From the NCBI GenBank assembly GCA_964036295.1, contig OZ038467.1, positions 18,945,670 through 19,009,669 on the forward strand: a stretch of 64,000 nucleotides of DNA, written 5' to 3'. A program made the position numbers and the translations under genes. The notes beneath the pieces were generated by a model. The model saw nothing but the letters and a program-made list of their open reading frames with translations, did no database searches and had not been told where the DNA came from. Shown piece after piece: positions 15,621-63,550 of this stretch (positions are counted from its first letter, which is position 1; each line of letters begins with the position of its first letter). Origin of the DNA: Plumapathes pennacea (taxonomy: Eukaryota; Cnidaria; Anthozoa; Antipatharia; Myriopathidae).

Positions 15621-15871
15621 CTGATAACAATTCGTGGCTCCTTTCCCCAGATTTACGAGCGCCTCGTTCCAGTTGTCTCCGTGGTCCTTTTGGGCGGTCC
15701 ACACACGGTCCCGTTGGTTAGTTTTAAATCTTTGATACACGTTGAGTATGCCCAGGTTGAAACCCTTCATGTGATAAAAGAACTGCAGACACTGCGGACC
15801 GCACATCACTTCACTCGTCATCACTGCCTTCCCTCCCTTTCGAGAGCCATGAAAATAGAAATACTTGCCAC
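15621..15871 (-). CDS. Exon 7 of third MAM gene: MAM2 'b' module, last exon in window
   Basis: The exon encodes GGKYFYFHGSRKGGKAV, then MCGPQCLQFFYHMKGFN and a stretch ending NCYQ at donor GTTAAT in phase 0. The extra Cys of MCGPQC is shared with MAM2 of the complete gene (MCGTRC). No downstream exon is found; the satellite begins 570 bp further on. Confidence 0.85.
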
Positions 15872-18800
15872 CTACAGCAGATCAATGTTTGAATTTTAAC
15901 ATGACTGATCAACTTCAATTTTCTACTTTAGTTTCGCATCAGAGATGTATATCACACACAGCATGGAAAACTTGGCTTTTTATACCTTGCTTCCCGGGGG
16001 GGGGGGAGGGGGGGGGCACTCATCACAATTTTGGGTGGGGTGTGCCGCCCGGTCCTGAAAACCCTTACCCTATTTCAGACCAAAATACCTGATTTTCTAT
16101 ACCCTATTTCAGACCTGACTCCAAACTTTTTTCCATATTTCAGACATTTTTCAGAGAATTTTTGTTCTTTTGCAACAATTTCCGCCCTGTGTTTTCTTCC
16201 ATTTGCCGTGTAATGTCCACGGCGACATATTTCTGACAAAATCGATACTCTATTTCAGACCAAAAAGGCAAAATCGATACCCTATTTCAGACTAAAAATG
16301 CTCGAAAACGATACCCTTTGGGGCGGCACATATCTATATGGCTTATATACGGGAGTAACCCCCCCCCCCCCCCCTCTCCCCCTCGAGCCTTGCTTATATG
16401 AAAGCTGAGTAGCTGATTAAACTATCAATTCTCTCTGCATCACTCATACATTTTCTTTTTAAAAGGTTGGGAGAATCTGTACTCTGAGCTTGGCATAGTG
16501 AAAGCGCACAATGCGTGAATGTGTCTGCATAACACCTTTTATTCTGTGTATGTGTTGCTGTCTGTGGTAAATGTGAATAAGTATATGGTTATGCAGGCTT
16601 GAACTGTCTTCATATTTCCTTTGTGGTTTGCATAGGTAAAGGTAATGAGAACATGTTATATATATGTTTATTATATAGATGTCGATGAAATATCTCCAGG
16701 ATTTCTCCATATCTAAAAAATGATATTTTCATCGCGCGCGAAATCTTCACACGTGAAGGATAAAAATGATATGTTCACTGTGCGCGTGAGTTTTGAAGAC
16801 ACCAAGTTCTGACAGGAAATAATACCTGTGAGATATGTCTTTGTTCTGGATATTTCATCGATATCTATATAATAAACAGAATATTATAATGCCGCTTGGA
16901 GATACGAATCCCATCTTCTCGTGTTGATAATATTGTCAACACTCGAAGATAAAATTCGTATCTACGCACGGCCATGTAATACCCTCTATGTATGTGTGTG
17001 TGTGTCTGTGTCTGTGTGTCTGTGTGTCTGTGTCTGTGTGTGTGAAAATTCGTGATCTTACCGGGATTGCGTCCGTGGTCAAGTTTGGGGGTATTTCTTG
17101 AATGCTGGCTTCCAGTGAGCCAATTCAACTCGTTTGCTCCTCCTTCATTGGTCCAACCGCACGGACCAAAGTCAAATGAGCAGCTCCCTAACAAACAAAA
17201 TAGTACTCTACAGTGAATCTATTATTAAGGAACACTTATTTAAGAGACACTTTTCGATCGGAAACAGGCTCAAACGGTCAAAATGTTTCAGGACATCAGT
17301 AATAATCCTGATCACAAATTATATAAATTATTACCTGAGCCAAACAAATGTAATCTTCAACTGAGAAATAGTCGAAGATATCACGTTCCCATTTGCAAAA
17401 CGAATAGACTAAAGAATAGCTTTTTCTACAGCAATTGCATGTATATAAACGATTTCATTGGAAGTTTTACGGATTATATCTTAGTATAGTTTTACCAATT
17501 GAACTCATTTGTAAAGTTTTATCTAATTCAGCTCTAGAGCTGTAATTTTAAAGCTTCAATAAACTATTTATCTTTATCTTATCTTTATCTCTCATCTTAT
17601 TTAAAACATACACCTTGTAGGAGCGGTCTCTGCCGTTTCTTCAGTCATTTTCTCTAACTAAATTGTCTAACGGACACCTCTCTATAACGGACAGTTGACG
17701 CTGGTCCTGATGGTGTCTTTCTTAGAGGGAGTTGACTTATTAGCAATACTTATTGAAGTTCGGTTCATTATTTAGGCACGAGTGTTTTACTGGAAAATAT
17801 ACCGTGCGTAAAATCCATACGAAACTACATCCGGGACCTGCATGAGTGGCGTATTTTCCATGTCCTCACTAGTGAAGATATCGTTGGAATCATTTCCCGC
17901 TTTTGCACGGTTAATTGTGCAATTTCTCGTAAAACACTCGTGCCTAATATAATAAAAAGAAAATTACACGGCGGTTTGAAGATGTGGATTTTATTTACTC
18001 GTGGTGAAAATAAAATTCATATCTTCGCACCGCCGTGTAATATCCTCTATATATATACTACTATAAATTGAGCGACAGACACCCGAAGCTAGTACATATC
18101 GCAGATAAATAGAAGACAAGAGGTCAGATAAATAACAGACACTTGACAAAGGTTCACGGAGATACAATGAACACACGACAAAGGTTTACAGAGACACAAC
18201 GAACACACGACAAAGGTTCACGGAGACACAACAAACACACGATAAAGGTTTAAGGAGACACAACAAACACACGACAAAGGTTCACGGAGACACAACGAAC
18301 ACACGACAAAGGTTCACGGAGACACAACGAACACACGACAAAGGTTCACGGAGACACAACGAACACACGACAAAGGTTCACGGAGACACAACGAACACAC
18401 GACAAAGGTTCACGGAGACACAACGAACACACCACAAAGGTTCACGGAGACACAACAAACACACGACGAAGGTTTACGGAGACACAACGAACACATGACA
18501 ATAGTTCGCGGAGACAATGAACACACGACAATAGTTCACGGAGACACAACGAACACACGACAAAGGTTCACGGAGACACAACGAACACACCACAAAGGTT
18601 CACGGACACACAACGAACACACGACGAAGGTTTACGGAGACAAAACGAACACACGACAATATTTCACGGAGATAACGAACACACGACAATAGTTCACGGA
18701 GACACAACGAACACACGACAATAGTTCACGGAGACACAACGAACACACGACAAAGGTTCACGGAGACACAACGAACACACGACAAAGGTTCACGGAGACA

Positions 18801-21800
18801 CAACGAACACATGACAAAGGTTCACGGAGACACAACGAACACACGACAAAGGTTCACGGAGACACAACGAACACACGACGAATGTTTAAGGAGACACAAG
18901 GAACACACGACAATAGTTCACGGAGACACAACGAACACGCGACCATAGCTCACGGAGACAACGAACACACGACAATAGTTCACGGAGACACAACGAACAC
19001 ACAACAAAGGTTTACGGAAACACAACGAACACACGACAAAGGTTTACGGAAACACAACGAACACACGACAAAGGTTTAAAGCCGAAACACAACAGTCACT
19101 CATATAAAACTCTTCGCAGTACTTAACTGCCGCTGACCTGTATCAGTTGGCGATGGAGAAGGGACCGGCGCGCCTCCGACACAGGAGCGAGGAAGGAAGA
19201 AAACGTCATCAAGGGCAATTTCACTTCCGCCCCTACTTCCCACAGACGCAACAAAAGTGACCTGTAAGTAAATTCACGACAAGAAAAACGTGGCATCAGC
19301 AGTAGTAATACAGTAAACAACCGCTTATAAGAACCTACATTTTTACAAGTCAGCCTGAATAGGTTCTTATATATTTATCGGGTGTTTAGTAGGAGATCAG
19401 GCTGTTTAGGTTCAAAACTACAATCCTGGCCAAAAGTATGTGGGACACTCTGAAAAAATGCTATGTTTTCACCACCACTCCTTGTTCAACAACGAAAGCG
19501 GCTCCTGTTTCCGAAACTTAGTCCTCCCCCTCCCTCCCATACAATGTTGCTTAAAGGAAGTGCACTTTGAGCACATTCATTCAACATTGTAAGGGGGGAG
19601 GGGGGCGGGAAGAGGGAAAGTGTCATAATTTTTAGATAAAAGGCTAAGTGTCCCACGACTTTTGGCCAGGATTGTAGGTTGTTAATATTTCAGGGGTTTA
19701 AACTGCTTGCTACTGTTCAGAACAGTACTAATCTCATTATTTCAGTCGTGTCACAGAAACTATTAAATCACTGTTTAATAGGTAGGCAACTCAATAGCTA
19801 AAATAAGTATTGTACAGTTGTAGTAAAGTACATTTTACTCATACAATGCCTGTTTTATGAATTAGCAGGTTTCAAATGTCAGGCTGAATGGGTTTTTATG
19901 TAAGGGGGGTCTAAATTTCAAATTTCAGTCTGTAGGTTCTTAATATTTTCTCAGTCTTTTATTTTATTTAAACACGGTAAAAACATCAGTCATTCAAAAC
20001 ATCAGTACATCAAGTTATTTGAAAGTATTTACATAAAAATATTAATGCATCAATAAAACTGTTTTACATGTTTGCCGTGTGGGAGTCCGCTGTAGAAAAT
20101 AGTTTATCAATGCCTCTTTTGAAGTGATTGATGGAATAGGACATTCTAAGTTCGTGGGGAAGACTGTTCCAGAGATATGCCCCACTGTAGCTGAAGCTAA
20201 GTTTTAAATATTCTGTCCTGGGTTTTGGCAGGTTCAGTTTGTTTTCCGCATCTCTTAGATTATAGTTTGTGATTCGTGGTGCAAATAGGTCTTGTAGATA
20301 AACTGGGGTTTGTTTGTGAATATTTTTAAACATGGCAATGGCCTTTTGTTTCTTCCAATTTACAGATAGCTTGTCCGATCCAAGCATACTAAGCAGTAAG
20401 CTAGAATTTGTGTCATAGCCCACTAGGGCCTTATAAGCGCGTGTTTACTGTAGTTGTAGTAATAGTAGTTGGTACAGCAGTCATGTATAATAGTGGTAAC
20501 ATTAAGTGGTGTAGTTAGTCAAAGGTGTTTGTTATGCATGAAGTGTGGTGTATGTAATAATTATACCTACCTTGTATTTGTTTCCAGAGACAGGGACACT
20601 ACCCATATGCCATCCGGATCCCTGCTGACCGTGTTTTGACCACAAGATTTTTCCTGGGCTGTCCACAACTGTAAGTGAGCCCACGGTACTGCCTTGCATG
20701 CTGTAGTAGAAATACATGCACTTCGTTCCTCCCAGAGTTATACTGCTCAATTTGGCTACATCATCGGTTTTTCGCGGGAACGAGCTGTCGATGTACGCAT
20801 AAGAACCTGAAAGATATAATAACATTCATGACACTTAGATATTGATTAACTTCTTTGAGGGCCTAGATGGGGGGGGGGGGGGGGGGGGAGGGGGGGGGAG
20901 AGGTGGGGGGTCTGCACAACACTTAACAGTACAAATTTTAGGCCCATAACACTTAACAGTAAACCCCATCTAGGCCGTCTTGTCTTGTTTTACTAAATAT
21001 CTAGTCTCATAACACTTAACTGTAATTTTTTTACATAACACTTAACATTATATATTTTTGGCATCAAAAGTTCGGGCCCATAACACTTAACAGTAACCCC
21101 ATCTAGGCCCTCTTCTTTCGTTTGTAGGGAACACGGAAGAAGTGTGGGGAAGCTCGACGCCGCAAGTACTTCTGGGGCGGATTTCGGGGGGGGGGGTGAA
21201 TTGGGTGGCCCCTCCCCCTTTGAATTAGCAACTATAATAATAATTTGCGAATAGTGTGACAGAAAATAAATGCAATCAATCTAAACAGGTGTCTCAATAT
21301 AAGTAATCCTATTTTCTAGCTGTGCTTAAAATAGAGTACAGTATATCGCGTTTGACCGTAATTCTTTACTGTGCCCCAAAATTGTCTCAACGCGGGAAAG
21401 GCCATTTCAGAGATCTGAGATTTCAAAACTTTCGGGAGAGCACGCACTTGCACCCCCCCCCCCCCCCCCCCCTACCCCACCCAAATAGCTGTCGCCTTTG
21501 GTGTTCAACGATACTCAACCCCATACTCAAGGTTCACGGAGACACAACGAACACACGATGACAAAGGTTTACGGAGACACAACGAACACACGACAAAGGT
21601 TTACGGAGACACAACGAACACACGACAAAGGTTTACGAAGACACAACGAACACCCGGCAAACTTTTACGGAGACAACGAACACACGACAAAGGTTTACGG
21701 AGACACAACGAACACACTACAAATGTTTACGGAGACACAACGAATACACTACAAAGGTTTACGGAGACACAACAAACACACGGCAAAGCTTTAAGGCCGA

Positions 21801-24800
21801 AACACAACAAATGTCACTCAGATAAAACTCTTTGCAGCAGCTGCCGCTGACCTGTATCAGTTGGTAAAGACATTGCAAGCGACAATTTAGAAAACAACAA
21901 TAGAAAATCAGGTTTGACGCGGACTGACGTCAAACTGGCACGCACGTACTATCTTGAGTTTAATGCAGGTGACATTGGTCATCGTTTACCAATCAGATCG
22001 CGCGTACTATTCACCTTATTTTACACCATAGCTTTTTTTCTCTTACCAAGGTCTGTGATGTCTCCTTTAGTTCCCGTATGTTTGTTAAGCGTCTTCGCCT
22101 TGCGTCTTTTCCAATCAAATGAATCGTCTTTGTCATTGCTCCATTTGCAGAAGTTTTTATCAAAGTCACAATCAGCTGAAAAAAATATCAGTAATCAACT
22201 ATACAGTACAATACAGTGGAACCTTCTGTAAAGGTGATGTTACACGAGACAATTTTTAACGACGATTTTTCGCCCAACACCTACAATTTTGTAGCTAGCG
22301 CTTTGGCTTTTACTCTAAAAACATGGCGAACCTTCGCCAAAGGCGGAATTTTGTGCAAAGATTGCTATTCATTGATAGTTCGACGATTACTAGGCAAGAA
22401 GTATAGAAAAAAAATTGTTGCGCAAAAAATCGTCGTTAAAAATCGTCTCGTGTAACATCACCTTAAGCGACCACCCTTCGTTCGTCTTTAAGTGATCGCT
22501 TACGGGAGGTGGTCGCTTACGGGAATTTCTCACCATGGGAGGCCTGAGTGAGATTCAGCTTTGAGCCACAACAAGGAGTCAAATAATGCAGTTTTAGTGA
22601 GTGAAAAACAGCTTGTGTTTTGATAAATCAACATCGTGTCCTGTTGCACGTTGCATTAAATACGCTAGTGCTTTGTCCGGTCCGGTTTCTGAAAGGAAGT
22701 TAAGTTACTTTTAGACAAGAATTAGATAATTCCAATATGGCTGCATTTGTAATCTATTAGTCTATAGCTTATAGTTAGTGGTTAATACTTTTATTATATC
22801 TTAGATTTCTTGTTTTAGACAGATTTTATCTCTAAGTTCCTTTAGAAGTTGGATAGCAATTGGGGCGCAAGTCCTGTTTCTTCCTCCTGTCATTACACTC
22901 CATTACTTTGTATTCATTTAGGGCCTGATTATATGAGCCGGGCTGGCCCGGTTGGGCGGTTTGCCGAGATCCCGCCATGGCTGTGAAACACACCAAAAAT
23001 CGACTACGCGATTACATGAGAACCGGGCCAGCCCGGAAAGCCGGGATCCCGGCTCTGAGCCACAGGGATCCCGGCTGACTGGGCTGACATTTTTCCATGT
23101 AATCGCACGCAACGGGCCAGCCCGGCTCATATAATCTGGCCCTTAGTGTGTGTATGATCAATTTAATAAACTAAACTAAACTAAGTCTACACTCAGCTCA
23201 GAGGCGAGTGGTATTGACTGCTCACCCAGTCTCTCGCGGAACATCTCATCCACCAAAGCTGAAAATAACAAAAAAAAATGAGATGCGTTCCCAATAATTA
23301 CTCACGGCACCAGAGTAAGAGCAAGGCAAAACGAGGACACATTGTTGCAGCAGTTTTGTGTCCTTCGATGTTTCCAGGGCGGCAAAACGTGCAGCAGCAT
23401 TGTTGCGCTCCGCGCGGACATAACAAATGTTTATGAGGTTTCCAGAAACATTTTGTGTTCAGGAGATAAATTTTGTGCCCGCAACAAATGTATATCGCGT
23501 AGCAAAACGGGGCAAAATTTGGGAAACATGTGCGCCCTAGCAATGTGTCCTCGTTTTGCCTTAAGGCCATGTCACACGAGGCAATTGTTCTTGCAACTTG
23601 CAACGCAACGCCGTTGCGAGACAAGTTGCAGAAGAAATTGCTCGTGCGACACCCCTCTTTGCAACTTGCAACGCAACAAAAACTGCGAGACAAGTTGCAG
23701 AAAAAGTTGAAATGTCTTCTACTTTTCGCAACGTTGCGCAGTCTTGTTGCACCGTGTGACATGTACTTTGTAACTTGCCTCGCAATGCTGTCGTCAGCGT
23801 TACGGGACAAGTTGCAGGAAAAATTGCCTCGTGTAACATGGCCTTTAAATGTAGATGTTGTGAAAATGCGGTGTTGCGTGACTAGGCACGTGCTTGGGAA
23901 TTTAGCGCCATTCACCTAAACCTCCGGCTAGGTCAAGAGTGAATTGTGGAAGAATTGTTACCCGATCCGTGTGTCAGTGGCTGGATCCGATCTGCGAGAA
24001 GTCCATCGCTACATTTTGCTCCACAGAAGTGTGCCTCATTTTGGCGTTTTCTACGCTTTCGTGTTTTAGCAGTTTTGTTTTTGTTTTTGTTTTCGTTTTT
24101 GTTTTTTGTTTTTTTGGCCAATCAGGAACAAATCCACGACATAATTACGATCTGGCTTGTAAGTCGCGATGGCGTTTCCTCGCACTGGTGATTGGTTTCT
24201 TCTTTAAAGTAAGACTAACCAAACAAAACTGATTAGTTGAAAGTGTTTCGTACAGCCTCTGTAATAGTATAGGTAACTGATATGAGTTGCTTGTGCAATT
24301 AATCCTTTCACTCCTAAGTTCAAAATGCATATTCTCCCAACCTTTTAAGAGGAAAATGTATGAGTGATGCAGTAAGAATTGATAGTTTAATCAGCTATCT
24401 GAGCAAGGTATCAAAAGCCAAGTTCTCCTTACTATACAATGTGTTTCTGGTGAGAAACTGAAGAAGAAAATCGAAGTTGATCACTCTTGGGAGTGAAAGG
24501 GTTAATGATTTACACCACTCGAGATGTTAGAAATTACTTGTTTATCATGCGACTATAAAAGGGTTTGTTGGGACTCAAAATTCAAACAAAATTCTCTCGT
24601 TTAAGGACGCGCTAATGTCATGGTTGAAACTTGTTTTCGGACACCGAAATTTAACTCTTGTCGGATAAAGTCGTGGAAAAGCTACAGAAAGTACAGAACA
24701 CTGAAAAAAAGATTGGTTGCTACGATAACATTAATTAATTTCACTCAGTGTCATATGATAAGCGGAGTAATTCGACAGTCATCCGAAAAACGGTTTGTAG

Positions 24801-26067
24801 AAAACTTTTAAAAATAACCATTGAAATAGGATAGCACACATGCGGTGACGATTTAACTGCAGTGTGATAAACTGATCCATAGAAGCTGTGGCGGTTAAGA
24901 TGAGGAAAAACCGACCCTGCAGCCGACGAGTAGGCCATTGTGCCACATTCGGAGTCACTGCGAATGACAAAATTGCCGCTGTTCATTCGCAAATTTGCCT
25001 GATCTGCTAAATAATAATAAGTTTACGATTTGCAAGGGTTAATTTTTTTAATTAAAGGCACAATAAAGATTACTTTTTTTTTTAAGATAAGTCTCCGCTT
25101 AAGATGCTTTGAATAATCATGTAACTCTTCTTTCGCTCTGTACAGTCCGCAGACCTTGGTCTCGGCATGCGACTGCAAGTTAACTGGCGTTGACTGTTCG
25201 AGGAAGATTAATCAATTAGGGAAACGGATATTGATGTTTCCTAAAAGCAAGCTCCCTAAACCCTCTAACTGTGACAAACTAGACGCGGATTATTTAAAAA
25301 TTCTACGAAGCTGATTATGGAAAACTTCTATTCCCTATAAAACATATCAGATAAAAGTCGGTGTTGTAAAATCATTCTTTTTGTGGTTAAATATCCTCGA
25401 TTGGTGCTTGGTTTTCCTAAAGCCACCCTATTGAAGAAACGTCTATACAAAGACAGCAACACAGCGACTCGAAATGTACAAAAGTTAAAATTATAAAGAA
25501 ATAGAAATTCCTTTGAATATTAGGCGTAGCAATTGCATGTTCCTTTTTCGTCGTTTGGATAAAAAAGTGCTCAAAAAAGACATCTATAAATAGGCTGGTG
25601 TATCAAAAAAAGTTGATATAGGTACTGGAACGCCGTAAGAGGAACAGTAGCTGACGATTCAAGCGTTAACCCTTCGTCAGAGGGATGACGAAGGGCTAAC
25701 GGTCAAAAAGTCAGCATTGCTACTCTTACGGCGTTCCAGTACCTATGCCAAATTTTTGTTGATACACCAGCGTTTTTATCACCACGCCAACGCAGTTAAT
25801 CTAGTTTTTTTAAGAGCTGGTATCACACCATCTATAAATTGGTCGAACATCAACCCCGATCGAATTCTTTTCCCCTGTTTTTTTTGTTTGTCTATTGTAG
25901 TTTTTTTCCTCGTAGCGTTGGATTATGTTAGGCTTACATTTGTGTCAGGCCCGGATGTTTTCAACGCAATAAGTCGGCTTACCTTGCAAACCTGTGTCTG
26001 CTGCCAACGAAAAATATACGTTAGCCACAAGCGCAGCGACCAGGAAGTACAAAAATGTCTTCATCAT
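15621..26067 (-). CDS. Partial gene for secreted multi-MAM-domain protein (third paralogue, 5' part)
   Basis: Seven exons on the minus strand join in frame: 26067-25983, 23258-23226, 22175-22047, 20806-20571, 19261-19138, 17187-17062 and 15871-15621. They total 984 nt, or 328 codons. The product starts with a signal peptide, then a short linker, a complete MAM domain and the first two exons of a second MAM domain. All introns are GT-AG, with phases repeating 1, 1, 0. The second MAM resembles MAM2, not MAM1, of the neighbouring complete gene, so this is a positional paralogue. The last exon ends in phase 0 and needs a 'c' exon that is not found before the satellite; the gene must continue beyond the left edge or be truncated. 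MAM domains mediate extracellular adhesion or oligomerisation; the specific role is unknown. Confidence 0.82.
15999..16385. repeat. Dispersed element with G/C-rich ends (family H)
   Basis: The element is bounded by a G-run and a C-run. Inside, CCCTATTTCAGACCAAAA is repeated several times, followed by TTTGGGGCGGCACAT. Related copies lie at 41826-42240, 55615-55850 and 63238-63362. It sits in the intron between MAM2 a and b of the third gene. Confidence 0.65.
16388..16500. repeat. Partial copy of TTAACCCTTTCACTCC foldback family (family C)
   Basis: ATTAAACTATCAATTCTCTC ... CATTTTCTTTTTAAAAGGTTGGGAGAATCTG matches the inner half of the full copies at 24299-24505 and 52554-52760. Only part of the element remains. 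Confidence 0.6.
16885..17044. repeat. Short foldback element and (TG)n microsatellite
   Basis: About 16888-16985 forms an imperfect hairpin (GGAGATACGAAT ... ATTCGTATCT). It is followed by a TG/TCTG tract to 17044, which ends close to the MAM2 'a' donor. Confidence 0.6.
17062..17187 (-). CDS. Exon 6 of third MAM gene: MAM2 'a' module
   Basis: The exon encodes GSCSFDFGPCGWTNEGG and ends LDHGRNP before donor GTAAGA. It runs phase 1 to phase 1. The GSCSFDxGPCGW start matches MAM2 of the complete gene (47373-47248) and differs from the CDF/CNF starts of the other domains. Confidence 0.88.
17280..17592 (+). pseudogene. 3' end of a non-LTR retrotransposon (LINE)
   Basis: The plus strand encodes a peptide with DPDHKLYKLLPEPN, then YHVPICKTNRLKNSF and a stop near 17489. 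This resembles the extreme C-terminus of LINE ORF2 proteins, which often end in a (DP.H.L..LLP ... P.C.T.R..NSF) tail. About 100 bp of 3' untranslated sequence follows, with AATAAA and a terminal TTATCT tandem repeat typical of a LINE tail. The reverse transcriptase domain is absent, so this is a 5'-truncated insertion. Confidence 0.6.
17600..17770. repeat. Dispersed GCGGTCTCTG/TAACGGACAG repeat fragment
   Basis: The stretch from GTAGGAGCGGTCTCTGCCGT to CTTAGAGGGAGTTGA matches 37610-37720 in the complete gene's intron. It is repeat-derived; no gene is seen. Confidence 0.55.
17773..18050. repeat. Two adjacent foldback elements
   Basis: 17773-17951 has inverted ends (AGGCACGAGTGTTTTAC / GTAAAACACTCGTGCCT). 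17964-18045 is a second hairpin (TTACACGGCGGTTTGAAGAT ... CACCGCCGTGTAA). The second resembles the hairpin at 16888-16985. Confidence 0.7.
18133..19080. repeat. 32-bp minisatellite, array 1
   Basis: The unit is CAAAGGTTCACGGAGACACA plus ACGAACACACGA, with about 30 copies. Variants include CAATAGTTCACGG and CAAAGGTTTACGG. The array lies in the intron just downstream of the MAM1 'c' exon. A shorter array of the same unit is at 21529-21790. Confidence 0.93.
19138..19261 (-). CDS. Exon 5 of third MAM gene: MAM1 'c' module
   Basis: The exon starts after TTACAG and encodes VTFVASVGSRGGSEIALDDV, then FFLPRSC (fourth MAM Cys) and a Pro/Ser-rich linker (PVPSPSPTDT). It ends in phase 1 at donor GTCAGC. 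The last bases and donor are duplicated at about 21840-21865. Confidence 0.85.
19421..19674. mobile_element. Tc1/mariner-like MITE, copy 1
   Basis: Terminal inverted repeats CAATCCTGGCCAAAAGT / ACTTTTGGCCAGGATTG are flanked by TA on both sides. The middle is a C-run followed by a G-run. TA flanks and the CC-GGCCAAAAGT-like end fit the Tc1/mariner superfamily. No transposase is present. Other copies are at 44557-44814 and 49262-49509. Confidence 0.8.
19950..20423 (-). pseudogene. LINE ORF2 C-terminus with 3' tail
   Basis: A 119-codon frame ends at 20064. It contains KKQKAIAMFKNIHKQTP, YLQDLFAPRITNYNLRD and SYSGAYLWNSLPHELR, which are characteristic of the C-terminal region of jockey/CR1/L2-type LINE reverse transcriptases. 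The catalytic domain is missing (5' truncation). The 3' side ends in an A-rich AAATAAAATAAAA tail near 19960. It lies in the MAM1 b-c intron in the same orientation as the gene. Confidence 0.8.
20571..20806 (-). CDS. Exon 4 of third MAM gene: MAM1 'b' module
   Basis: The exon encodes the MAM core: GSYAYIDSSFPRK, then KCMYFYYSMQGSTVGSLTV and ILWSKHGQQGSGW. The acceptor is CTTTCAG and the donor GTAGGT. It starts in phase 1 and ends in phase 0, as do all 'b' exons of the cluster. It carries the third conserved MAM Cys. Confidence 0.9.
20857..21113. repeat. Foldback element with CATAACACTTAAC repeats
   Basis: The inverted ends are GAGGGCCTAGATGGGG / CCCCATCTAGGCCCTC. Inside, CATAACACTTAACAGTA or a close variant occurs five times beside a long G-run. 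It begins about 50 bp upstream of the MAM1 'b' acceptor. Confidence 0.7.
21114..21528. other. Intron sequence, no gene
   Basis: Mostly unique AT-rich sequence with G-run (21189-21196) and C-run (21453-21472) tracts. No exon signal in phase with the gene is seen. Confidence 0.5.
21529..21790. repeat. 32-bp minisatellite, array 2
   Basis: About eight copies of the unit seen at 18133-19080. The right flank (GGCCGAAACACAACA ... CTGCCGCTGACCTGTATCAG) also matches the right flank of array 1, including the end of the MAM1 'c' exon. Confidence 0.9.
22047..22175 (-). CDS. Exon 3 of third MAM gene: MAM1 'a' module
   Basis: The exon starts after TTTTTTTCAG and encodes ADCDFDKNFCKWSNDKDDSF and then DW, the start of a MAM domain with its first two conserved Cys and the Trp. 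It runs phase 1 to phase 1, with donor GTAAGA. The usual TGP..DH segment is replaced by a Lys/Thr-rich stretch (KAKTLNKHTGTKGD). Confidence 0.88.
22231..22464. mobile_element. MITE-like foldback element (GTGATGTTACACGAGAC ends)
   Basis: Inverted ends AAGGTGATGTTACACGAGAC / GTCTCGTGTAACATCACCTT extend inward for about 40 bp. It has no coding capacity. A different element with related termini is at 23563-23845. Confidence 0.8.
22920..23143. mobile_element. MITE-like foldback element (AGGGCC-GATTATATGAGCC ends)
   Basis: Ends AGGGCCTGATTATATGAGCC and its near-complement GGCTCATATAATCTGGCCCT are followed by CCGGGCTGG arms. The overlapping 60-70-codon frames are due to the hairpin and are not genes. 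Confidence 0.8.
23226..23258 (-). CDS. Probable 33-nt linker microexon of third MAM gene
   Basis: A long T-rich tract ending TTATTTTCAG precedes 33 nt that read A-LVDEMFRERL when joined to the G left by exon 1. A good donor (GTGAGC) follows. Start and end are both phase 1, so the microexon can be included or skipped without changing frame. I did not find a counterpart in the complete gene. It is inferred from splice signals and phase only. Confidence 0.5.
23323..23562. mobile_element. MITE-like foldback element with 22-bp perfect ends
   Basis: Ends AAGGCAAAACGAGGACACAT and ATGTGTCCTCGTTTTGCCTT are perfect complements over 22 bp. It abuts the next element at 23563. The long open frames that cross both elements are artefacts. 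Confidence 0.82.
23563..23845. mobile_element. MITE-like foldback element with internal TTGCAACTTGCAACGCAAC repeats
   Basis: Outer ends AAGGCCATGTCACACGAGGC and GCCTCGTGTAACATGGCCTT pair. The interior holds several copies of a TTGCAACTTGCAACGCAAC / GCGAGACAAGTTGCAG unit in both orientations. Confidence 0.8.
24299..24505. mobile_element. MITE-like element, family C (TTAACCCTTTCACTCC ends)
   Basis: Ends TTAATCCTTTCACTCCTAAG and CTTGGGAGTGAAAGGGTTAA. The body reads GAGAATTGATAGTTTAATCA ... AAGTTGATCAC. This is the most frequent element here: near-full copies at 52554, 46732, 52820 and 60600, a head-to-head pair at 43474-43793, and fragments in other introns. Confidence 0.8.
24506..25593. other. 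Intron 1 of third MAM gene, no supported exon
   Basis: AT-rich sequence. A partial copy of the GACAGTCATCCGAAAA terminus occurs at about 24773-24795. An 83-codon frame at 24992-24741 follows a plausible acceptor but has no recognisable domain. Nothing else is supported. Confidence 0.5.
25594..25771. mobile_element. MITE-like palindrome, family B, copy 1
   Basis: Ends GCTGGTGTATCAA / TTGATACACCAGC; inner arms include GGAACGCCGTAAGAGGAACA against its complement. A better preserved copy is at 29000-29172. Confidence 0.8.
25983..26067 (-). CDS. Exon 1 of third MAM gene: signal peptide
   Basis: The exon encodes 28 residues beginning MMKTFLYFLVAALVANVYFS, a typical signal peptide with a probable cut after LAA. 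The start is set at this MM pair because the hydrophobic core follows at once; an in-frame Met at 26142 would add 25 residues without signal character. The donor GTAAGC leaves phase 1. A weaker in-phase donor (GTTTGC) lies 9 nt upstream. Confidence 0.75.
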
Positions 26068-27070
26068 TGCAAAGGAATATCCTTGTTCTTGCACAAACTG
26101 CAACGCAAAAATAGATTGAATTCCTCGACGGAAATTTGCCAAGTTGTAAACTAATCACTTCGCTTGTTCCCGAGCTCAATCTCTGGCCTTGCCCTTGGCA
26201 AGTAATGTCAACTAAGAATGTAATGACATCAGAGAGATACATTTAAATGAAAGTGTGAACAGATTTTGCTAGATAGAGAGCTGGCTGATGAAGTAAAGAA
26301 ATGTTATCCTTCCGCGGCGGCTTCCGGCGTTCCTGCTGTTAGTGAAACCACTCCAGCTTTCCCCGGCTTTTACTTGAGTTACTTAACCTCTAAAAATACG
26401 CTTTGAGCACGAGTGTTAGCATTTGCAAATTTGGCAGAGGAAAAGCAAGATTGTAAGTTCTTTGTGAAACGTAGTTAGAAAGCCCAGCTCGTGAAATAAA
26501 ATACCGGGAAAATATATAAGCAAGATGCTGGGCTATGCCAGTAAAGCTATGGTTCGTAGAAGCAAGCAGCGAATAAATACAAACTTTCTTTAATTACTGT
26601 ATTAAAATTAAAGCAGCTGCGTTGGATAGTTTTAACTGTAAAAACTGGCAAATAATTAGAACATCTGCCAAGATAAAATTGTCTGAGTTACTGGAATACT
26701 TTGTCTGTTTGAGACCGGAAATATGTTAATACTGATAGGACAGGGTATTATAACTTTATGAACAAGGAATATATAATATTCACCAAGTTGTCAGAAAATT
26801 GTTCGCCTCTGACCATCTGGAAAAGCTTCGCAAATGAGCCGACATCAGTCAGATTTAAATACTCTATAAACGCTCAGGCGCTCAGGTTTGCATGGGCGCA
26901 GAAGGAAATGAATCAATCTTTTGTCAAAAGAAGATATTCACACCTTTTGAGTTTTGAGTTTGTGTTTTAGCATGGTATTCTGACAAACACAACAACAACA
27001 ACTATAACTACAAAAAAAAAGAAGACTGGTCAGTAGCTTGACAGATGTGAACGGGTGTTTATAAACTATT
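26068..27070. other. Region upstream of third MAM gene
   Basis: This contains the presumed 5' leader and promoter of the third gene. A CATTTAAATG TATA-like motif lies near 26236-26245. No further gene is seen. Confidence 0.35.
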
Positions 27071-28823: not shown

Positions 28824-28999
28824 TATGCTAGTCCCCAGGAGCAGTCCACCATAGATAATTCGCTGTAGCTCAAAAGTATAATCGCGTTACTTGCATTCTT
28901 TCATACTGGGAAATACAGAAAAACGCAGGTAGACTCAAAGAACAATGTAATACCAGCTCTTAAGAGAACTAGGTTGACTGCGTCGGCGTGGCGGAAGAC

Positions 29000-32366: not shown

Positions 32367-32417
32367 GTACTGACTTCCTAACTGACGAGCTCTGAGTGCA
32401 TTTACCTTAGAACTCAG

Positions 32418-32522
32418 TCAGTGTCGTCTTCTCTTCGCCTTACAGGAACCTTTAGTGAAGGTAATATCATCGATAGCGATGTCACCACGGTAACTGTCGC
32501 CCACCGTAGCTTCAATGACAAT
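32418..32522 (-). CDS. Exon 16 (last) of five-MAM gene: MAM5 'c' module, stop
   Basis: Encodes [20 protein letters not shown], then TFTKGSC and the tail KAKRRRH with TGA at 32420-32418. The exon is 105 nt, the same length as the terminal exon of the upstream paralogue at 63446-63550. Confidence 0.92.
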
Positions 32523-51300: not shown

Positions 51301-54300
51301 TATTTCTTCATTATTTCTTTCCCTCTCATTTTGTTCCTCTACTGTAAAGCCTGGTTTCCATATAATATCGTCTCTGACGTAGGGATCGTCTCTGTCGCAG
51401 AATTTTTTGTCAAGCGATCGGGACGCGATTATATGGAAACACTCTTGCGATTGTTTCAAACGATTCTTACGTCAGAAGGACTCGATCGTCCCGATAGAAC
51501 CGTGTTCTATCCTTGCGTCGACAAAAATTCTGGGACAGAGACGATCCTTACGTCAGAGACGATTATATGGAAACCAGGCTTTAAGCCTGGTTTCCATATA
51601 ATCGTCTCTGACGTAAGGATCGTCTCTGCATTTCCGGTCGTCTCCGACGCAAGGATAGAACATGGTTCTATCGGGACGATCGAGTCGCTTCTGACATAAG
51701 GATCGTTTGAAACAATCGCAAGAGTGTTTCCATATAATCTTCCCGATCGCTTGACAAAAAATTCTGCGACAGAGACGATCCTTACGTCAGAGACGATTAT
51801 ATGGAAACCAGGCTTTAGTCTCTTCTTGTGAATTCGTTGTGTGTTTCATGATTTATCACTCACCGTTTCCTGACGTGTGATCATTATTGGGTCCTGTACC
51901 ACTGCTTGGTGTTCTTCCTGTGCGTCTCACCCAATCAAACTGATCTTCCTTGTCATTAGTCCACTGACAGATGTTCTTGTCGAAGTTACAATCACCTGAA
52001 AGAAAATTCGCGATCCAGGTAATTTCTCTTTCCCGACGTCAGATACTCCTCTTTACACAAAAAAATCGCGACACTTTAATTTCGCAAATTTCGCGACTAT
52101 GAAAAAAAATCGTAAAACTTAAAAGTGCGAAATTACAGGGCCCTCTCAGCCTTTTCAATGTTTTTGTTTACATCTGGAAAATCCAAGGCTGAGTTTGGTT
52201 CCCTTCACGAAAGAACGTAATTAATCAAAAGAAGAATAGGTTAGTAGCACTTTTAGATCAAAAGAAACTAATCTTCTCCTCAAACGAGCCGGATGGAAGT
52301 GGATTGCTATTCATCTTTCGACTTTCGGGGGCCCCCAAAATGGCGGAACCAAGGATTTCGGCGCGCAAAGGACTGTGGTTGAAAGAGCCCCTTTAAACCA
52401 AAATTAAAGTGACCTAGGATATAAATTTTTCGAAAATCGCAAACTTGCACCCCCAAAATCGCGAAATTAGCATATCGCGAAAAGTTCACGTAATTTAGGT
52501 ACGCAAAATGTGCATGAACAGCGAGAAAAACTCGGTGACAGGTGGTTTTGCTATTAACCCTTTCACTGCCAAGCTCAAAATGCAGATTCTCCCAACCTTT
52601 TACGAGTAAAATGTATGAGTAATGTAGTGAGAATTGATAGTTTAATCAGCTTTCATCTTAACAAGGCATCAAAAGCTAATTTCTCCCTACTGTATATGTT
52701 TCTGGTGAGAAACTGAAGGAGAAAATCGAAGTTGATCATTATTGGGAGTGAGAGGGTTAATTGGCCGCAAAAAAAAACTGATAAAGTTTTCGCAGGAAAG
52801 ACAGTAAAAATATAATTCCTTTAACTTCTTCACTCCTGATCTCATAATTCAAATTCTCCCAAAGAAGAGAATATGAGAATTGATAGGCCAATCAGCTTTC
52901 ATCTGAGCAGCCTGTCAAGCAACAAATTCTCCATACTGTACACTGAGACTGAAAGAGAAAATTGAAGTTGATCACTCAGGAGTGAAAACAGGTTTTGAAT
53001 TATTTGACAGGCAGAACAAAACCTTGAGCGACAAGGAGAAACAAAAATTTGAAGTAACAAAAAAAAGACAAGGAAAACAGGCATATAAGGCTGAATCTCT
53101 GTGCAAATGCACAAAAATACAACACAAAAAAACAAAAACAAAAAAGAACTCAGTTTGAGTGTTCACAAGTCAGTATCAACTTGATGAAGAATAAGTCGAG
53201 TGATTTCGTTCAGTGATTAATGGCTACCGACACAGCTGGAATAGTACTAATGAAAAATGCAGCCAATTTATCCCAAGCAGATGCTTGTCAGCTGCAGCTT
53301 GTCAGCATGTTGCTCTCATTGACGGGCGCTGTCATTAAGTTAGGAATTTTAGCCTTGAATGAACAGTGTAGTTGCCAAAGTCTTCCTCGGTGGATTTCAA
53401 CTGATTGTAGTTGCGTAGGCGTGCGCCCAAGTAGCGCATAATGATGGAACAGAAACTCGATTTTAAATTCCGAGTTTTTCGGTTTCCGGATGACTGTCGA
53501 AAGCCAAAAACCAAGTAAATACACCGCCAGTCACGGAGATGCTGTACAAAGAAACACTTTAATCAAACTACCAGAAGCAAAGTAATTCATGATTGATTTT
53601 ACTTTGAATATTTGCAGAGAAAACGCCATCAGCATTGTTTCCTCGTGTGAGAACGAAACAGTTGGGTTTCGAAAAGTAATTATCAGTGTCAAATGGCAAA
53701 ATTTGCAGCCTTCTGCTGCTGTTTATTGTTTATACACGAAAAGTTCTAAAAACCTTAATTAATTTACATAGAACCGCATTAAAATAAGAAATATACATGC
53801 AAGTTTAAGCTTAGTGATAAAATCCCTCCCATCCCTTTAGGCATCCAAAAGGTTGACGACCTTAAGTTTGCTTTTAAATGAGTCTAGGGATGCGGCCAAA
53901 AGGAATGCGTATTGAGAAAAAACGACAGAAACCCCGGAGGAACGTTTGGTTTACCATAAAACCACATCCAACGGTTGTACTAAAAGGTTCAGGATATTCA
54001 ACCTAATTACAGTCAAAAGGATACATGGGAGACATTTGTTATTATTGAGTGGGTGGAAATGAGCTCTAAATACGTGTAAATTAACAGTCCAAACATCACA
54101 GGAAATGGATAAAAGTACTAAAAGTTTACTAAATTTGATCAAAACTCCGCGCTCAATAGATTGAAGCTCCAAGTCGAGGAAGAAAGTCTTTAGTTAGACT
54201 AACAACTTGTTCGCTCAGGCCAAGAATTTACAAAAGTCGCACTATTTCACAAGGATTAAAACTCATCGCGAAGACTTTGTGACTGTTTTTCGTTTAGTTC

Positions 54301-54649
54301 GCAACAAAAGTAGACGATGTATTGTAAAATGAACTCTGGTATTCGTTCAATTTAACAAAAATATGAAGGTTCAGAAACCTGATCACCGAGTGTACTGCAG
54401 CCGGGCATAGTTCGATGTACATGTACGCGTTTCGTCATGTGCAGGTATTGCACAACGGTAGCGAAAATAATCATCAAAATAATACAAACTGTCCTGTGCA
54501 CAGCAGAGAAAAGCTCCAGAAATGGTATCAGGATAATTTAAAGAAAACACAGAGGGAAAAAAACCACCTTTAAACTCACCATCAGCAGCCAGTGCGGTAG
54601 ACGTGAACAGAAAAGTCCCACAAAACACTAAAAAACACAAACGCATCAT
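32418..54649 (-). CDS. Secreted five-MAM-domain protein, complete 16-exon gene
   Basis: Sixteen minus-strand exons join in frame to 2637 nt, a predicted 878-residue protein. Order: signal peptide ([21 protein letters not shown]), then five consecutive MAM domains of about 165-180 residues, each spread over three exons (a, b, c), and a short basic tail (KAKRRRH). Every domain shows the four MAM cysteines, the conserved Trp after the second Cys, the aromatic IEAS strand and the GDIAIDD motif. All introns are GT-AG; phases repeat 1, 1, 0, so each domain is a symmetric 1-1 cassette. No membrane span is seen, so the product should be secreted. Likely N-glycosylation sequons are NVT, NGT (twice), NDT and NCS. 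MAM domains are known adhesion or oligomerisation modules; the precise role here is unknown. The start is chosen because the signal core follows at once; an in-frame Met at 54736 is probably outside or at the edge of the transcript. Confidence 0.9.
32655..32838. repeat. 118-bp tandem duplication across the exon 15 donor
   Basis: About 32655-32720 repeats 32770-32838: ACGTTCCTGGTAAAAACC against ACGTACCTGGTGAAAACC, followed by AAGCT-GCCAGG. The distal copy has GA in place of the donor GT and a TAG in the former frame, so it is non-functional. Confidence 0.75.
32795..33078 (-). CDS. Exon 15 of five-MAM gene: MAM5 'b' module
   Basis: Encodes [16 protein letters not shown], then [19 protein letters not shown] and a stretch ending QLGFHQ at donor GTACGT in phase 0. 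At 284 nt it is the longest 'b' exon, with a Pro/Ala-rich insertion ([11 protein letters not shown]). Confidence 0.9.
33262..35226. repeat. About 2 kb of hexamer-based 18-bp tandem repeat
   Basis: The array is built from AGGCAC, AAGGAC and ACACAA/AGCAAA hexamers, mostly as the 18-mers GCACAAGGACAGGCAAAG and GCACAAACACAAGCAAAG. It fills most of the intron between exons 15 and 14. Because the unit is a multiple of three and free of stops, all minus-strand frames are open (up to 668 codons); none is a gene. Confidence 0.95.
35227..35971. other. Intron 14, upstream part
   Basis: No repeat array and no exon signal are visible. A few inverted motifs (CCATTTTCGTACAATACGAA near 35858) occur. Nothing else is supported. 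Confidence 0.45.
35972..36103 (-). CDS. Exon 14 of five-MAM gene: MAM5 'a' module
   Basis: Encodes [20 protein letters not shown], then [20 protein letters not shown] and HGGN. This is a canonical MAM start with CNF, FCKW and the TGPxxDH loop. The acceptor follows a T-run (ATCATCAG); the donor is GTTTGT; phases are 1 and 1. Confidence 0.92.
36139..37440. repeat. Three tandem copies of a 415-445-bp dispersed element
   Basis: Copies begin at about 36139, 36555 and 36995 with ACTAGCGGGACCCCCGTAAA and end with ACGGACGGACGGAAGTG and TTAGCGTATTATTATGTAGA. The first two match throughout; the third keeps the ends but its centre is different sequence. The element sits in intron 13. Confidence 0.8.
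37437..37555. repeat. (TAA)n microsatellite
   Basis: About 118 bp of almost pure ATA/AAT trinucleotide, directly after the ATTATTATGTAGA end of the third tandem element copy. The Asn-rich frame on it is an artefact. Confidence 0.95.
37846..38372. repeat. Approximately 500-bp dispersed repeat, copy 1
   Basis: Matches 50845-51300 in intron 2: shared strings include TTGTACCAACACAATTTA, GTAACACCGAAA, AGCTAGGAAGG and ATGTTAGTTAAACATCG. It ends just before the exon 13 donor. Confidence 0.75.
38387..38522 (-). CDS. Exon 13 of five-MAM gene: MAM4 'c' module
   Basis: Encodes [20 protein letters not shown], then [10 protein letters not shown] with the fourth Cys and an NCS sequon, ending YKVDT at donor GTAAGA. 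It starts in phase 0 and ends in phase 1. The usual IAIDDI is IALDVI here, a small departure from consensus. Confidence 0.9.
39039..39286 (-). CDS. Exon 12 of five-MAM gene: MAM4 'b' module
   Basis: Encodes [19 protein letters not shown], then [19 protein letters not shown] and [14 protein letters not shown], ending GTNYK at donor GTGAGA in phase 0. Contains an NGT sequon near its end. Confidence 0.92.
39885..40013 (-). CDS. Exon 11 of five-MAM gene: MAM4 'a' module
   Basis: Encodes [19 protein letters not shown], then [20 protein letters not shown]. It runs phase 1 to phase 1. The acceptor CTTCAG and first bases are duplicated 59 nt upstream (40072). Confidence 0.9.
40085..40242. repeat. 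Partial family C element
   Basis: AGCTGATTGAAATATCTATT ... TTGAATGGTTGGGAG and AACTTGGGAGTGAAAGTGTT match the family C body. A further fragment is at 39804-39873. Confidence 0.6.
40347..40662. mobile_element. MITE-like element, family D (TTTTCGGATG-CTGTCGAAA ends)
   Basis: Ends AGAGCGGTTTTCGGATGGCT and AGTCATCCGAAAACGGCTCT. The arms carry GATTGGTCCA / CCAATC motifs and AACCAAAACCAAA runs. Copies at 42651-42912, 44154-44456 and 45179-45494. Similar 77-79-codon frames in two copies reflect element similarity, not a gene. Confidence 0.85.
40708..40852 (-). CDS. Exon 10 of five-MAM gene: MAM3 'c' module
   Basis: Encodes [20 protein letters not shown], then [18 protein letters not shown] and a linker ending VKTQG at donor GTAACG, phase 1. 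It contains an NDT sequon and the fourth MAM Cys. Confidence 0.92.
40868..41380. repeat. 42-bp minisatellite in intron 9
   Basis: The unit is GACACGAGTTGTAACGAAGC plus AATACGAGGACAAGACGAAG GG, about 12 imperfect copies, ending a few bases from the exon 10 acceptor. In the sense strand it is pyrimidine-rich and may act as the polypyrimidine region of that acceptor. Confidence 0.88.
41478..41716 (-). CDS. Exon 9 of five-MAM gene: MAM3 'b' module
   Basis: Encodes [18 protein letters not shown], then [19 protein letters not shown] and [14 protein letters not shown], ending HMFYQ at donor GTAAAG, phase 0. This is the closest of all the 'b' exons to a textbook MAM core. Confidence 0.94.
41826..42240. 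repeat. Dispersed element with G/C-rich ends (family H)
   Basis: Ends CCCGGGGAGGGGCACTCCCT and AGGGGAGTGCCCCCCACCG form an inverted repeat. The interior repeats CCCTGTTCCAGA. Related to 15999-16385. Confidence 0.7.
42327..42391. repeat. Long T-tract
   Basis: About 40 consecutive T, then a short gap and a further T-run. The flanking ATATAAGCCTCTGGCTTTGG resembles ATATAAGCCTCCGGCTTCTT near 50712, so this is probably the A-tail of a retroposed sequence on the minus strand. Confidence 0.6.
42651..42912. mobile_element. MITE-like element, family D
   Basis: Ends AGCCGTTTTCACATGAATGT and ACAGTCATCCGAAAAGCGCC; the left end is mutated. Confidence 0.78.
43340..43468 (-). CDS. Exon 8 of five-MAM gene: MAM3 'a' module
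   Basis: Encodes [19 protein letters not shown], then [17 protein letters not shown] and a short acidic loop (TADSSGR). It runs phase 1 to phase 1 with donor GTACGC. It carries an NGT sequon. The sequence just upstream of its acceptor is derived from a family C element. Confidence 0.92.
43474..43793. mobile_element. Two family C elements head to head
   Basis: 43474-43612 ends in CTTGGGAGTGAAAGA; 43613-43793 is the reverse orientation, from AACTTCGATTTTCTCCTTCA to AACTTGGGAGTTAAG. Together they form an inverted repeat in intron 7. Confidence 0.8.
43938..44061 (-). CDS. Exon 7 of five-MAM gene: MAM2 'c' module
   Basis: Encodes [20 protein letters not shown], then [18 protein letters not shown], ending KK at donor GTCTGT, phase 1. 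It has two adjacent Cys where other 'c' exons have one. Confidence 0.88.
44154..44456. mobile_element. MITE-like element, family D
   Basis: Ends GAGCGCTTTTCGGATGACTG and ACAGTCATCCGAAAATGGCTC. Non-coding. Confidence 0.82.
44481..45178. mobile_element. Foldback element with CGAACCCCGCT ends, interrupted by a nested MITE
   Basis: Ends AATCGAACCCCGCT and AGCGGGGTTCGACAT pair. GTTCGAAATAACCGAG-type strings fill the interior. The Tc1/mariner-like MITE at 44557-44814 is inserted inside. A related foldback is at 62384-62983. Confidence 0.7.
44557..44814. mobile_element. Tc1/mariner-like MITE, copy 2
   Basis: Ends CAATTCTGGCCAAAAGT / ACTTTTGGCCAGGATTG flanked by TA. The interior has the same ACAATGTTGACTGAGTGTGC core and a G-run. 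Confidence 0.82.
45179..45494. mobile_element. MITE-like element, family D
   Basis: Ends AGAGCCGTTTTCGGATGACT and AGTCATCCGAAAACCGCTCT are nearly perfect complements. It abuts the foldback ending at 45178. Confidence 0.88.
45600..45862 (-). CDS. Exon 6 of five-MAM gene: MAM2 'b' module
   Basis: Encodes [19 protein letters not shown], then [20 protein letters not shown] and a stretch ending SSQCYR at donor GTAAGG, phase 0. It has extra cysteines (MCGTRC, QCYR) relative to other 'b' exons, matching the third gene's MAM2 (MCGPQC, NCYQ). Confidence 0.92.
45911..46176. mobile_element. Near-perfect palindrome (GTCGAAACGTCTGTCACC arms)
   Basis: Arms of about 120 bp, AGTAGTCTCCAGGAAGACTG and TCGACTCCCTGAGCG against their complements, meet near 46045. 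Half copies occur at 48050-48190 and 42535-42640. Confidence 0.85.
46180..46731. other. Intron 5 sequence with AAGCGGACA repeat fragment
   Basis: 46205-46350 carries CTCTCTCCAAAGCGGACAC and its inverted complement. The rest is unique AT-rich intron. No exon is seen. Confidence 0.5.
46732..46925. mobile_element. Diverged family C element
   Basis: AACCCTTTCACTCCTGAACTC start, GAGAATTAATAATCCAATCA body; the right end is degenerate. Confidence 0.65.
47248..47373 (-). CDS. Exon 5 of five-MAM gene: MAM2 'a' module
   Basis: Encodes [19 protein letters not shown], then [10 protein letters not shown] and KKDHGGKV. It runs phase 1 to phase 1 with donor GTAAGT. The start matches the third gene's exon at 17187-17062. 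Confidence 0.92.
47532..47800. mobile_element. MITE-like element (TTAAAGGGGCC ends), copy 1
   Basis: Ends TTAAAGGGGCCTTCTCA and TGAGAGGGCCCCTTTA pair. A second copy with the same body (GGAAAATGCAAGGCTGA, AAATGGCGGAACCAAGGAT) is at 52137-52396. Confidence 0.82.
48050..48200. repeat. Half copy of the GTCGAAACGTC palindrome
   Basis: TTCACTTGACTCTGAAGATG and CCAACAACAGTCTTTCTGGA match the right arm of the palindrome at 45911-46176. Confidence 0.7.
48480..48609 (-). CDS. Exon 4 of five-MAM gene: MAM1 'c' module
   Basis: Encodes [20 protein letters not shown], then [11 protein letters not shown] and a Ser-rich linker ending SSSDGGN at donor GTGAGA, phase 1. The usual GDIAIDD is SDAAIDD here. Confidence 0.93.
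48657..49027. mobile_element. Foldback element rich in CAAGGACTTTTCAAG
   Basis: Ends CAGGGTTCG / CGAACCCTG. The interior has several AATTCAAGGACTTTTCAAG-like strings. It lies in intron 3. Confidence 0.7.
49202..49785. repeat. Tandem duplication; one copy holds a MITE insertion
   Basis: 49202-49258 plus 49512-49585 matches 49655-49785 (TGATCCCGGGCTTCTG / CGATCCTGGATTTCTA; TTCATGGCAGTAGTGAAAAA in both). The left copy is interrupted at its TA by the MITE at 49262-49509; the right copy keeps the empty TA at 49708-49709. Confidence 0.8.
49262..49509. mobile_element. Tc1/mariner-like MITE, copy 3
   Basis: CAATCCTGGTCAAAAGT / ACTTTTGACCAGGATTG ends, TA on each side. Same internal core as the other two copies. 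Confidence 0.85.
49824..50068 (-). CDS. Exon 3 of five-MAM gene: MAM1 'b' module
   Basis: Encodes [19 protein letters not shown], then [19 protein letters not shown] and [14 protein letters not shown], then [10 protein letters not shown] at donor GTAAGT, phase 0. Contains an NVT sequon. Confidence 0.94.
50340..50844. other. Intron 2 sequence, no gene
   Basis: AT/CT-rich. Contains ATATAAGCCTCCGGCTTC near 50710, shared with about 42430-42455, and an A-run at 50820-50840. Probably the 3' part of a dispersed repeat. Confidence 0.45.
50845..51300. repeat. Approximately 500-bp dispersed repeat, copy 2
   Basis: Matches 37846-38372, in the same orientation, in another intron of the same gene. Confidence 0.75.
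51345..51817. mobile_element. 473-bp palindrome of two abutting inverted elements
   Basis: TAAAGCCTGGTTTCCATATA starts the left arm; the right arm ends TATATGGAAACCAGGCTTTA. The arms are about 235 bp, meeting at about 51581 with almost no spacer. Repeated GTCTCTGACGTAAGGATCGT motifs. It lies 47 bp downstream of the exon 2 donor. Confidence 0.9.
51864..51995 (-). CDS. Exon 2 of five-MAM gene: MAM1 'a' module
   Basis: Encodes [19 protein letters not shown], then [20 protein letters not shown] and HTSGN, a canonical MAM start. Acceptor TTTCTTTCAG; donor GTGAGT; phases 1 and 1. Confidence 0.95.
52137..52396. mobile_element. MITE-like element (TTAAAGGGGCC ends), copy 2
   Basis: Same body as 47532-47800 in the same orientation; ends slightly more diverged. 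Confidence 0.8.
52554..52760. mobile_element. MITE-like element, family C, full copy
   Basis: Ends TTAACCCTTTCACTGCCAAG and TTGGGAGTGAGAGGGTTAA. In the same orientation as 24299-24505. Confidence 0.85.
52820..52990. mobile_element. Family C element, internally deleted
   Basis: CTTCACTCCTGATCTCATAA start and GATCACTCAGGAGTGAAAA end. Shorter than the full copies. Confidence 0.7.
53478..54579. other. Intron 1 of five-MAM gene
   Basis: 53478-53680 is a decayed family D element (TTTCCGGATGACTGTCGAAA). The rest is unique AT-rich sequence with no exon signal. Confidence 0.5.
54580..54649 (-). CDS. Exon 1 of five-MAM gene: signal peptide
   Basis: Encodes [20 protein letters not shown] and then AAD, a clear signal peptide with probable cleavage after ALA. 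Donor GTGAGT, phase 1, joins directly to MAM1. Confidence 0.9.
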
Positions 54650-57535: not shown

Positions 57536-57537
57536 TA

Positions 57538-62983: not shown

Positions 62984-63445
62984 ATAAAGACTTAATTTGG
63001 GCTGCCCAACTTCTTCCGTGTTGGAGCATGTCCATTCTCCTTGTAAGAAGGTCCAAAACTGTAAGCTTTTCGGCCTATTTCTGCTCGGCAGGCTTTGTTG
63101 ACGGCCTTTTTACTCAAGCCAGGTTTTGCTTACAGAATTTGACGTGAACTTGCTCAATTGGATCACGCGTTTCGTTATATTTTCCATCGAAACCCCATAT
63201 TTCGCAGCAGTACGTGAGGATAGGGGTTTGGTAAGTGTGGGGATCACCCTGTTTAAGACACGAAAATGTAAAATGGTATACCCTGTTTAAGAGAACAGAG
63301 AACCCTGACAACGATAACCTATCGGGCAGGACGTCCCCACCCCTCCCCCCCCCCCGCCCCACGGAACTCGCGGTCGCCCACTAAAACTAACTTTTCCTGA
63401 AAAAATGTACAATCTAGTTGAATGTGTGTTCATCGGGAGCCTTTC
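62984..63445. other. 3' flank of the rightmost MAM gene
   Basis: 63238-63362 is a family H fragment ending in a C-run. No AATAAA is seen on the minus strand close to the stop. No further gene. Confidence 0.45.
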
Positions 63446-63550
63446 TCACTTTGTGCGCGCTTTCACGAAGCAACTCCCCGTTAAAAATCCAACGTCATCA
63501 ATACCAATATCTCCACTGTATGAACGTCCCCGGACGCCTTCAATGAGAAC
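63446..63550 (-). CDS. Terminal exon of an upstream MAM gene (first paralogue): 'c' module, stop
   Basis: Starts after ATTCTCAG and encodes [20 protein letters not shown], then GFLTGSC and FVKARTK followed by TGA. Like the last exon of the complete gene it is 105 nt, enters in phase 0 and ends seven residues after the final Cys with a basic tail. The 'a' and 'b' exons lie beyond the right edge. A GTGAGA donor overlaps the stop (AAA|GTGAGA); its phase would be 2, which does not fit the phase-1 'a' exons, so termination is the better reading. Confidence 0.8.

Follow-up and report, generated by a model that had tools for sequence, protein, structure and literature searches.

A head-to-tail cluster of MAM-domain genes in Plumapathes pennacea, built from three-exon modules of two sequence classes

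In MDGA1, enteropeptidase, an SR-C-like receptor, neuropilins, RPTP kappa/mu and meprins the MAM domain sits beside other domains, and the MAM domains of receptor phosphatases participate in adhesion. Human MAMDC2 is described as a secreted protein made of MAM domains only, four in number, with a length of 686 aa (PMC7507446). The skeletal matrix of corals is reported to include a protein combining MAM and LDL-receptor domains, which also has homologues in other animals (PMC4890752). Astacin proteases are reported to have acquired MAM domains several independent times, and these domains are said to evolve fast relative to the protease domain (PMC4545420). Modules flanked by phase 1 introns on both sides are presented as the rule among shuffled animal extracellular proteins (PMC8001218), in a work whose main text does not contain 'MAM' as a whole word; among the literature matches listed, none was evidently about the exon split of the MAM domain.

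The locus reported here lies in a window of 64,000 nucleotides, i.e. the whole stretch of P. pennacea DNA that was analysed. It is very probably best explained as at least three tandem paralogous genes for secreted, MAM-only proteins, likely extracellular and adhesive, whose modules would have separated into two classes before a block of modules or a whole gene was duplicated. One gene (B) is complete; a partial gene (C) lies downstream of it, and a further gene (A), represented by its last exon only, lies upstream. The architecture of the gene B product, which is the level at which the comparison was made, resembles that described for MAMDC2 in that a short signal sequence, here judged by hydropathy, is followed by consecutive MAM domains only, but comprises five domains in 878 aa instead of four in 686. 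The coral and sea anemone proteins carrying MAM and LDL-receptor domains are, like the predicted proteins described here, cnidarian multi-MAM extracellular proteins; according to their description, however, they add LDL-receptor, fibronectin, EGF and trefoil domains, whereas here Pfam finds MAM only, and the two adjacent Nematostella models mentioned in the same work resemble halves of one coral protein and provide no parallel for tandem paralogues (PMC4890752). The class 1-1 modules described by Patthy are matched by the phase 1 flanks of the domains, by a signal exon ending in phase 1 and by the frequent glycine codons at phase 1 joins (PMC8001218), while the MAM modules differ in also having internal introns, in phase 1 and phase 0. 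The locus is a tidy instance of a known route of animal protein building and not a new kind of system; it leaves the knowledge of MAM domains and of exon shuffling unchanged, and offers a readable case in which one locus combines symmetric extracellular modules with what were probably two levels of duplication, first of the module and later of a block or gene.

Each MAM domain is split over three exons, indicated as a, b and c; domains M1 to M5 belong to gene B, M6 and M7 to gene C. MAM-like peptides were first looked for in the six frames, and nine long open frames were then compared with Pfam: seven of them matched MAM at E <=0.1, six above the Pfam cut-off. For nine other long open frames of the window Pfam had no match at E 0.01. 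Exon profiles were searched on both strands against 2,499 six-frame open stretches of at least 18 aa. A first set, built on 6 a, 6 b and 2 c exons of the window itself, recovered several exons outside its own training set, namely a4 (i-E 1e-13), b7 (5e-22), c5 (1e-9), c1 (5e-9), c0 (8e-5) and c4 (0.03); c2 was matched by the first c profile at an i-E of 3.1, level with chance matches. The second set, built on all 7+7+7 exons, returned 7 a (<=1.2e-16), 7 b (<=3e-31) and 7 c exons (<=6e-16), a self-recovery which is expected by design, and outside these exons the best match had an i-E of 0.42 for the a profile, of 2.1 for b and of 0.82 for c. The window contains 21 MAM exons, seven of each kind and all on the minus strand, and no further or decayed MAM exons were found in it by profile searches of both strands. 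The exons range from the end of b7, at 15621, to the start of c0, at 63550, and form six full MAM domains and one, M7, devoid of its c exon. These re-derived exons agree with the outer coordinates and exon counts of the original prediction, and the profiles confirmed its description of seven full or partial MAM domains plus one terminal c exon, distributed over three genes on one strand. Rfam produced no matches to the window at gathering scores, and a search of viral contigs with an alignment of five of the seven b exons gave 19 pattern matches, none of which was confirmed as a relative.

Coding exon 1 of gene B is a signal-like exon of 70 nt (54580..54649, minus strand, as all the exons that follow), which ends in phase 1 and encodes a signal-like peptide of 23 residues, recognised by hydropathy; its donor ranks first of seven, and a weaker second donor, 12 nt further, also passed the screen. 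The MAM exons, located by profile and splice score, are a1 (51864..51995), b1 (49824..50068) and c1 (48480..48609) for the first domain; a2 (47248..47373), b2 (45600..45862) and c2 (43938..44061, on the second c profile) for the second, which belongs to the class with extra cysteines; a3 (43340..43468), b3 (41478..41716) and c3 (40708..40852) for the third; a4 (39885..40013), b4 (39039..39286, with the acceptor ranking second of five) and c4 (38387..38522) for the fourth; a5 (35972..36103), b5 (32795..33078) and the terminal exon c5 (32418..32522, 105 nt, stop TGA) for the fifth. When joined, the signal exon and the 15 MAM exons make up 2,637 nt that read in a single frame to the one stop at their end and code for 878 aa. 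An AATAAA is found at 32366, about 50 bases beyond the stop. The mean hydropathy of the signal is 1.98, while that of 19-residue segments starting after residue 40 never exceeds 1.13; a membrane anchor is therefore unlikely in this protein, and its sequence suggests that the product would be secreted after cleavage of the signal. A small peculiarity concerns c4, which reads IALDVIS, in contrast to the D-D or D-E pair found at this place in the six remaining c exons.

Gene C has two MAM domains, with exons in the order a6 (22047..22175), b6 (20571..20806), c6 (19138..19261), a7 (17062..17187) and b7 (15621..15871), all on the minus strand and supported by profile and splice score, with the donor of b7 ranking second. 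A screen of 22176-32417 for a signal exon let one donor and frame pass, with two adjacent ATGs, and identified a candidate exon of 85 nt (25983..26067, minus strand; MMKTFLYFLVAALVANVYFSLAADTGLQ), whose donor ranks first of four and which ends in phase 1, as does the signal exon of gene B. No c exon following b7 was found in the window with the second profiles. Beyond b7, positions 1-15052, up to the end of the window, are occupied by a tandem satellite with an 89-bp unit, present in about 171 copies with 92% matches. For gene A, the terminal MAM exon c0 (63446..63550, minus strand, 105 nt, stop TGA) was found by profile, with its acceptor ranking first of four; no AATAAA was seen in the 1,500 bases after it, in which the only related signal is an ATTAAA at 62314. 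Exons c0 and c5 are alike, as both are 105 nt long and contain a stop and a basic tail; their agreement in length and stop position is as expected if the genes are paralogous. The head-to-tail arrangement originally proposed is supported; all exons are on the minus strand, and signal-like exons lie between the runs of MAM exons.

Exon lengths vary within 126-132 (a), 236-284 (b) and 105-145 nt (c), the same ranges as in the original prediction. Exon ends were set by hand and start phases assigned from the open frame, resulting in phases 1-1 for a, 1-0 for b and 0-1 for c exons, except that the terminal exons c0 and c5 finish with a stop. The common a-b-c split with phases 1-1-0 that had been read from the sequence is borne out by the joined frames, which agree with it at every one of the 20 joins inspected (gene B has 15 of them and gene C has 5; the joins after b7 and before c0 lie outside this set), and the 2,637 nt of gene B reveal no frameshift between modules, a finding that had been named as able to refute the model. 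Joins between signal and domain or between domains are in phase 1 in 7 of 7 cases, M5 ending in a stop and the end of M7 falling outside the view. At the phase 1 joins of genes B and C the split codon is glycine in 11 of 14, including all seven a-b joins; Val, Glu and Ala occupy the remaining three. Since knowledge of the phase could bias the choice of the site, splice sites were scored with phase ignored, by evaluating each AG and GT within 30 nt of an exon end with weight tables. The chosen site ranked first for 20 of 21 acceptors and for 20 of 21 donors (19 of MAM exons and 2 of signal exons), the exceptions being the b4 acceptor (second of five) and the b7 donor (second of four); some sites ranking first nevertheless had low scores, among them the acceptors of c5 (-3.0) and b7 (-0.7) and the donor of a5 (-0.8). 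The predicted splicing is consistent with these scores, and phases, joined frames and phase-blind scores together support the symmetric 1-1 three-exon unit originally described. As a exons are also symmetric (1-1) on their own, the frame-neutral mobile unit could be a, b+c or a+b+c, and the three-exon unit is one of several possible ones.

The MAM assignment, for which a Pfam run on the joined protein had been proposed as a check, was evaluated in this way, and 5 + 2 stretches were found. MAM (PF00629) matches the gene B protein in five stretches (E 8.2e-166, 546.1 bits) and the gene C protein in two (E 5.4e-51, 173 bits), the cut-off being 26.4. The best stretches cover positions 1-158 and 1-157, respectively, of the 158 of the model, and MAM is the sole Pfam family detected at E <=0.001 in both joined proteins. 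The four conserved cysteines of the domain, which form two disulphides, are present in all six modules having a c exon, and the first three of them in M7, which lacks it; more than four cysteines are found in M2 (7) and M3 (5). Queries with three of the seven modules (M1, M2 and M5) detected, among PDB chains, MDGA1, enteropeptidase, an SR-C-like receptor, neuropilins, RPTP kappa/mu and meprins, the best match being MDGA1 with M5 (E 4.2e-29). By sequence these chains contain the same domain, but each has at most one matching stretch, whereas here MAM is the only domain and is repeated. Two TAL-effector chains, also matched by M2 (E 0.002 and 0.008), evidently arose by chance. An adhesive or matrix role would fit a secreted chain of five MAM domains.

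Pairwise identity among the seven modules ranges between 25 and 47%, with M7 entering the comparison through its a and b exons. The tree of all domains by position, which the original prediction had suggested, was built from the seven modules of this locus and separates M2 and M7 from M1, M3, M4, M5 and M6 with a support of 100/99.9; the split is found at 100/99 from the a and b exons alone, and is the sole firm branch of the tree. M2 and M7 are each second in their own gene and have two additional cysteines of the b exon in common. Since sisters occupy equal positions in two genes, it appears that a block of several domains, or an entire gene, was copied for at least part of the array. The other pair predicted by gene duplication, M1+M6, is present in the best tree with a support of 57/85, and the alternative M1+M5 is not rejected (p-AU 0.37), so that of the two positional pairs one is firm and the other weak. 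The original description of one strictly repeated cassette stands for the exon plan and fails for the sequences, which fall into two classes; similarly, the origin by cassette duplication then proposed may be retained for an older stage, while for M2 and M7 the tree indicates copying of a block or gene. Two domain classes and, probably, two levels of duplication have to replace the one uniform cassette.

According to the explanation we favour, each domain would be a three-exon 1-1 module within genes coding for a signal peptide and then MAM domains only, five in gene B. Inside one ancestral gene such modules would have multiplied by single-cassette duplication and diverged into two classes; the classes probably arose first; afterwards a block with modules 1 and 2 as a minimum, and on the simplest view the entire gene, would have been duplicated in tandem with the class order kept. 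The encoded proteins are most likely extracellular and may serve as rods that mediate adhesion or build matrix by means of MAM-MAM or MAM-ligand contacts.

Third codon positions differ most in all five of the module pairs compared, out of 21 possible; between M2 and M7, 61, 40 and 67 of 125 codons differ at positions 1, 2 and 3, with a slight excess at the third. This is modest evidence, with no rate estimate attached, of purifying selection between old paralogues. Comparison of the DNA of genes B and C by blastn (E 1e-5) gave 23 matches, two of which connect introns at the same position: 52540-52761 with 24285-24506, between signal and a exon, in the same orientation (86%), and 49259-49514 with 19416-19677, in the first b-c intron, in opposite orientation (83%). 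The gene C copies, however, match other gene B introns better (89% at 43608-43789 and 87% at 44550-44817); for this reason both were taken for dispersed repeats and rejected as relict intron homology. As the DNA similarity between the two genes is restricted to apparent dispersed repeats, either the duplication is not recent or introns turn over fast.

The modules might instead have been copied one at a time, within and between genes, and no larger block ever duplicated. As all of them have the same phases and are frame-neutral, this route is mechanically open, and the weak support of M1+M6 would agree with it; it has nevertheless to face the firm pairing of M2 with M7, both second and with their extra cysteines in common, and the fact that signal exons and terminal c exons are also paired between neighbouring genes, and we regard it as improbable. 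That the exons belong to one long MAM gene rather than to three, c5 and c0 being spliced onward through other donors and their stops skipped, is highly improbable: a GTAAGG does occur within c5, in phase 1 and ahead of the stop, but splicing there would interrupt the codon for the final conserved cysteine of the MAM domain, and the equal distance of the stops in c5 and c0 (105 nt), the signal-like exons between MAM runs and the AATAAA following c5 all argue against it.

A different question is raised by gene C, which could be truncated, because the donor of b7 ranks second and the window yielded no following c exon (c7). It might be a decaying fragment, whose 3' part was lost or displaced by the 89-bp satellite filling 1-15052. 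This reading, compatible with the tandem duplication of MAM-only genes favoured above, seems somewhat unlikely, since the five MAM exons are open in one frame and nine of the ten splice sites rank first; moreover the window ends within the satellite, so that c7 may lie beyond. Extending the favoured explanation, the locus could represent a tandem family, restricted to one lineage, of secreted rods with no domain but MAM, in which the second domain with its extra cysteines (M2/M7) has been kept across gene copies, resulting in a common adhesive core plus a specialised second module, and whose spread may also have made use of the phase 1 joins between a and b exons; this extension is speculative and, on present data, unlikely.

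Introns and intergenic regions of the cluster contain repeats of several kinds. Tandem arrays were found in the a5-b5 intron (33274-35223, 18/36-bp units, from whose composition long open frames on both strands follow), in the b3-c3 intron (40867-41338, 42-bp units), in two introns of gene C (18145-19076 and 21529-21793, made of a closely similar 32-bp unit) and between genes B and C (29913-32114, a nested array of 90/171/342-bp units). Two gene B introns host an inverted pair of 323-nt sequences (40342-40664 and 45177-45499), 97% complementary, which is perhaps a recent mobile element. The dispersed repeat at 24285-24513 occurs in several copies, located in introns and intergenic sequences in both orientations, which are 70-89% identical to the copy in that position. 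Finally, a 126-aa open frame in the b6-c6 intron (20064-20444, minus strand), with no Pfam match at E 0.1, presumably resembles the end of a reverse transcriptase.
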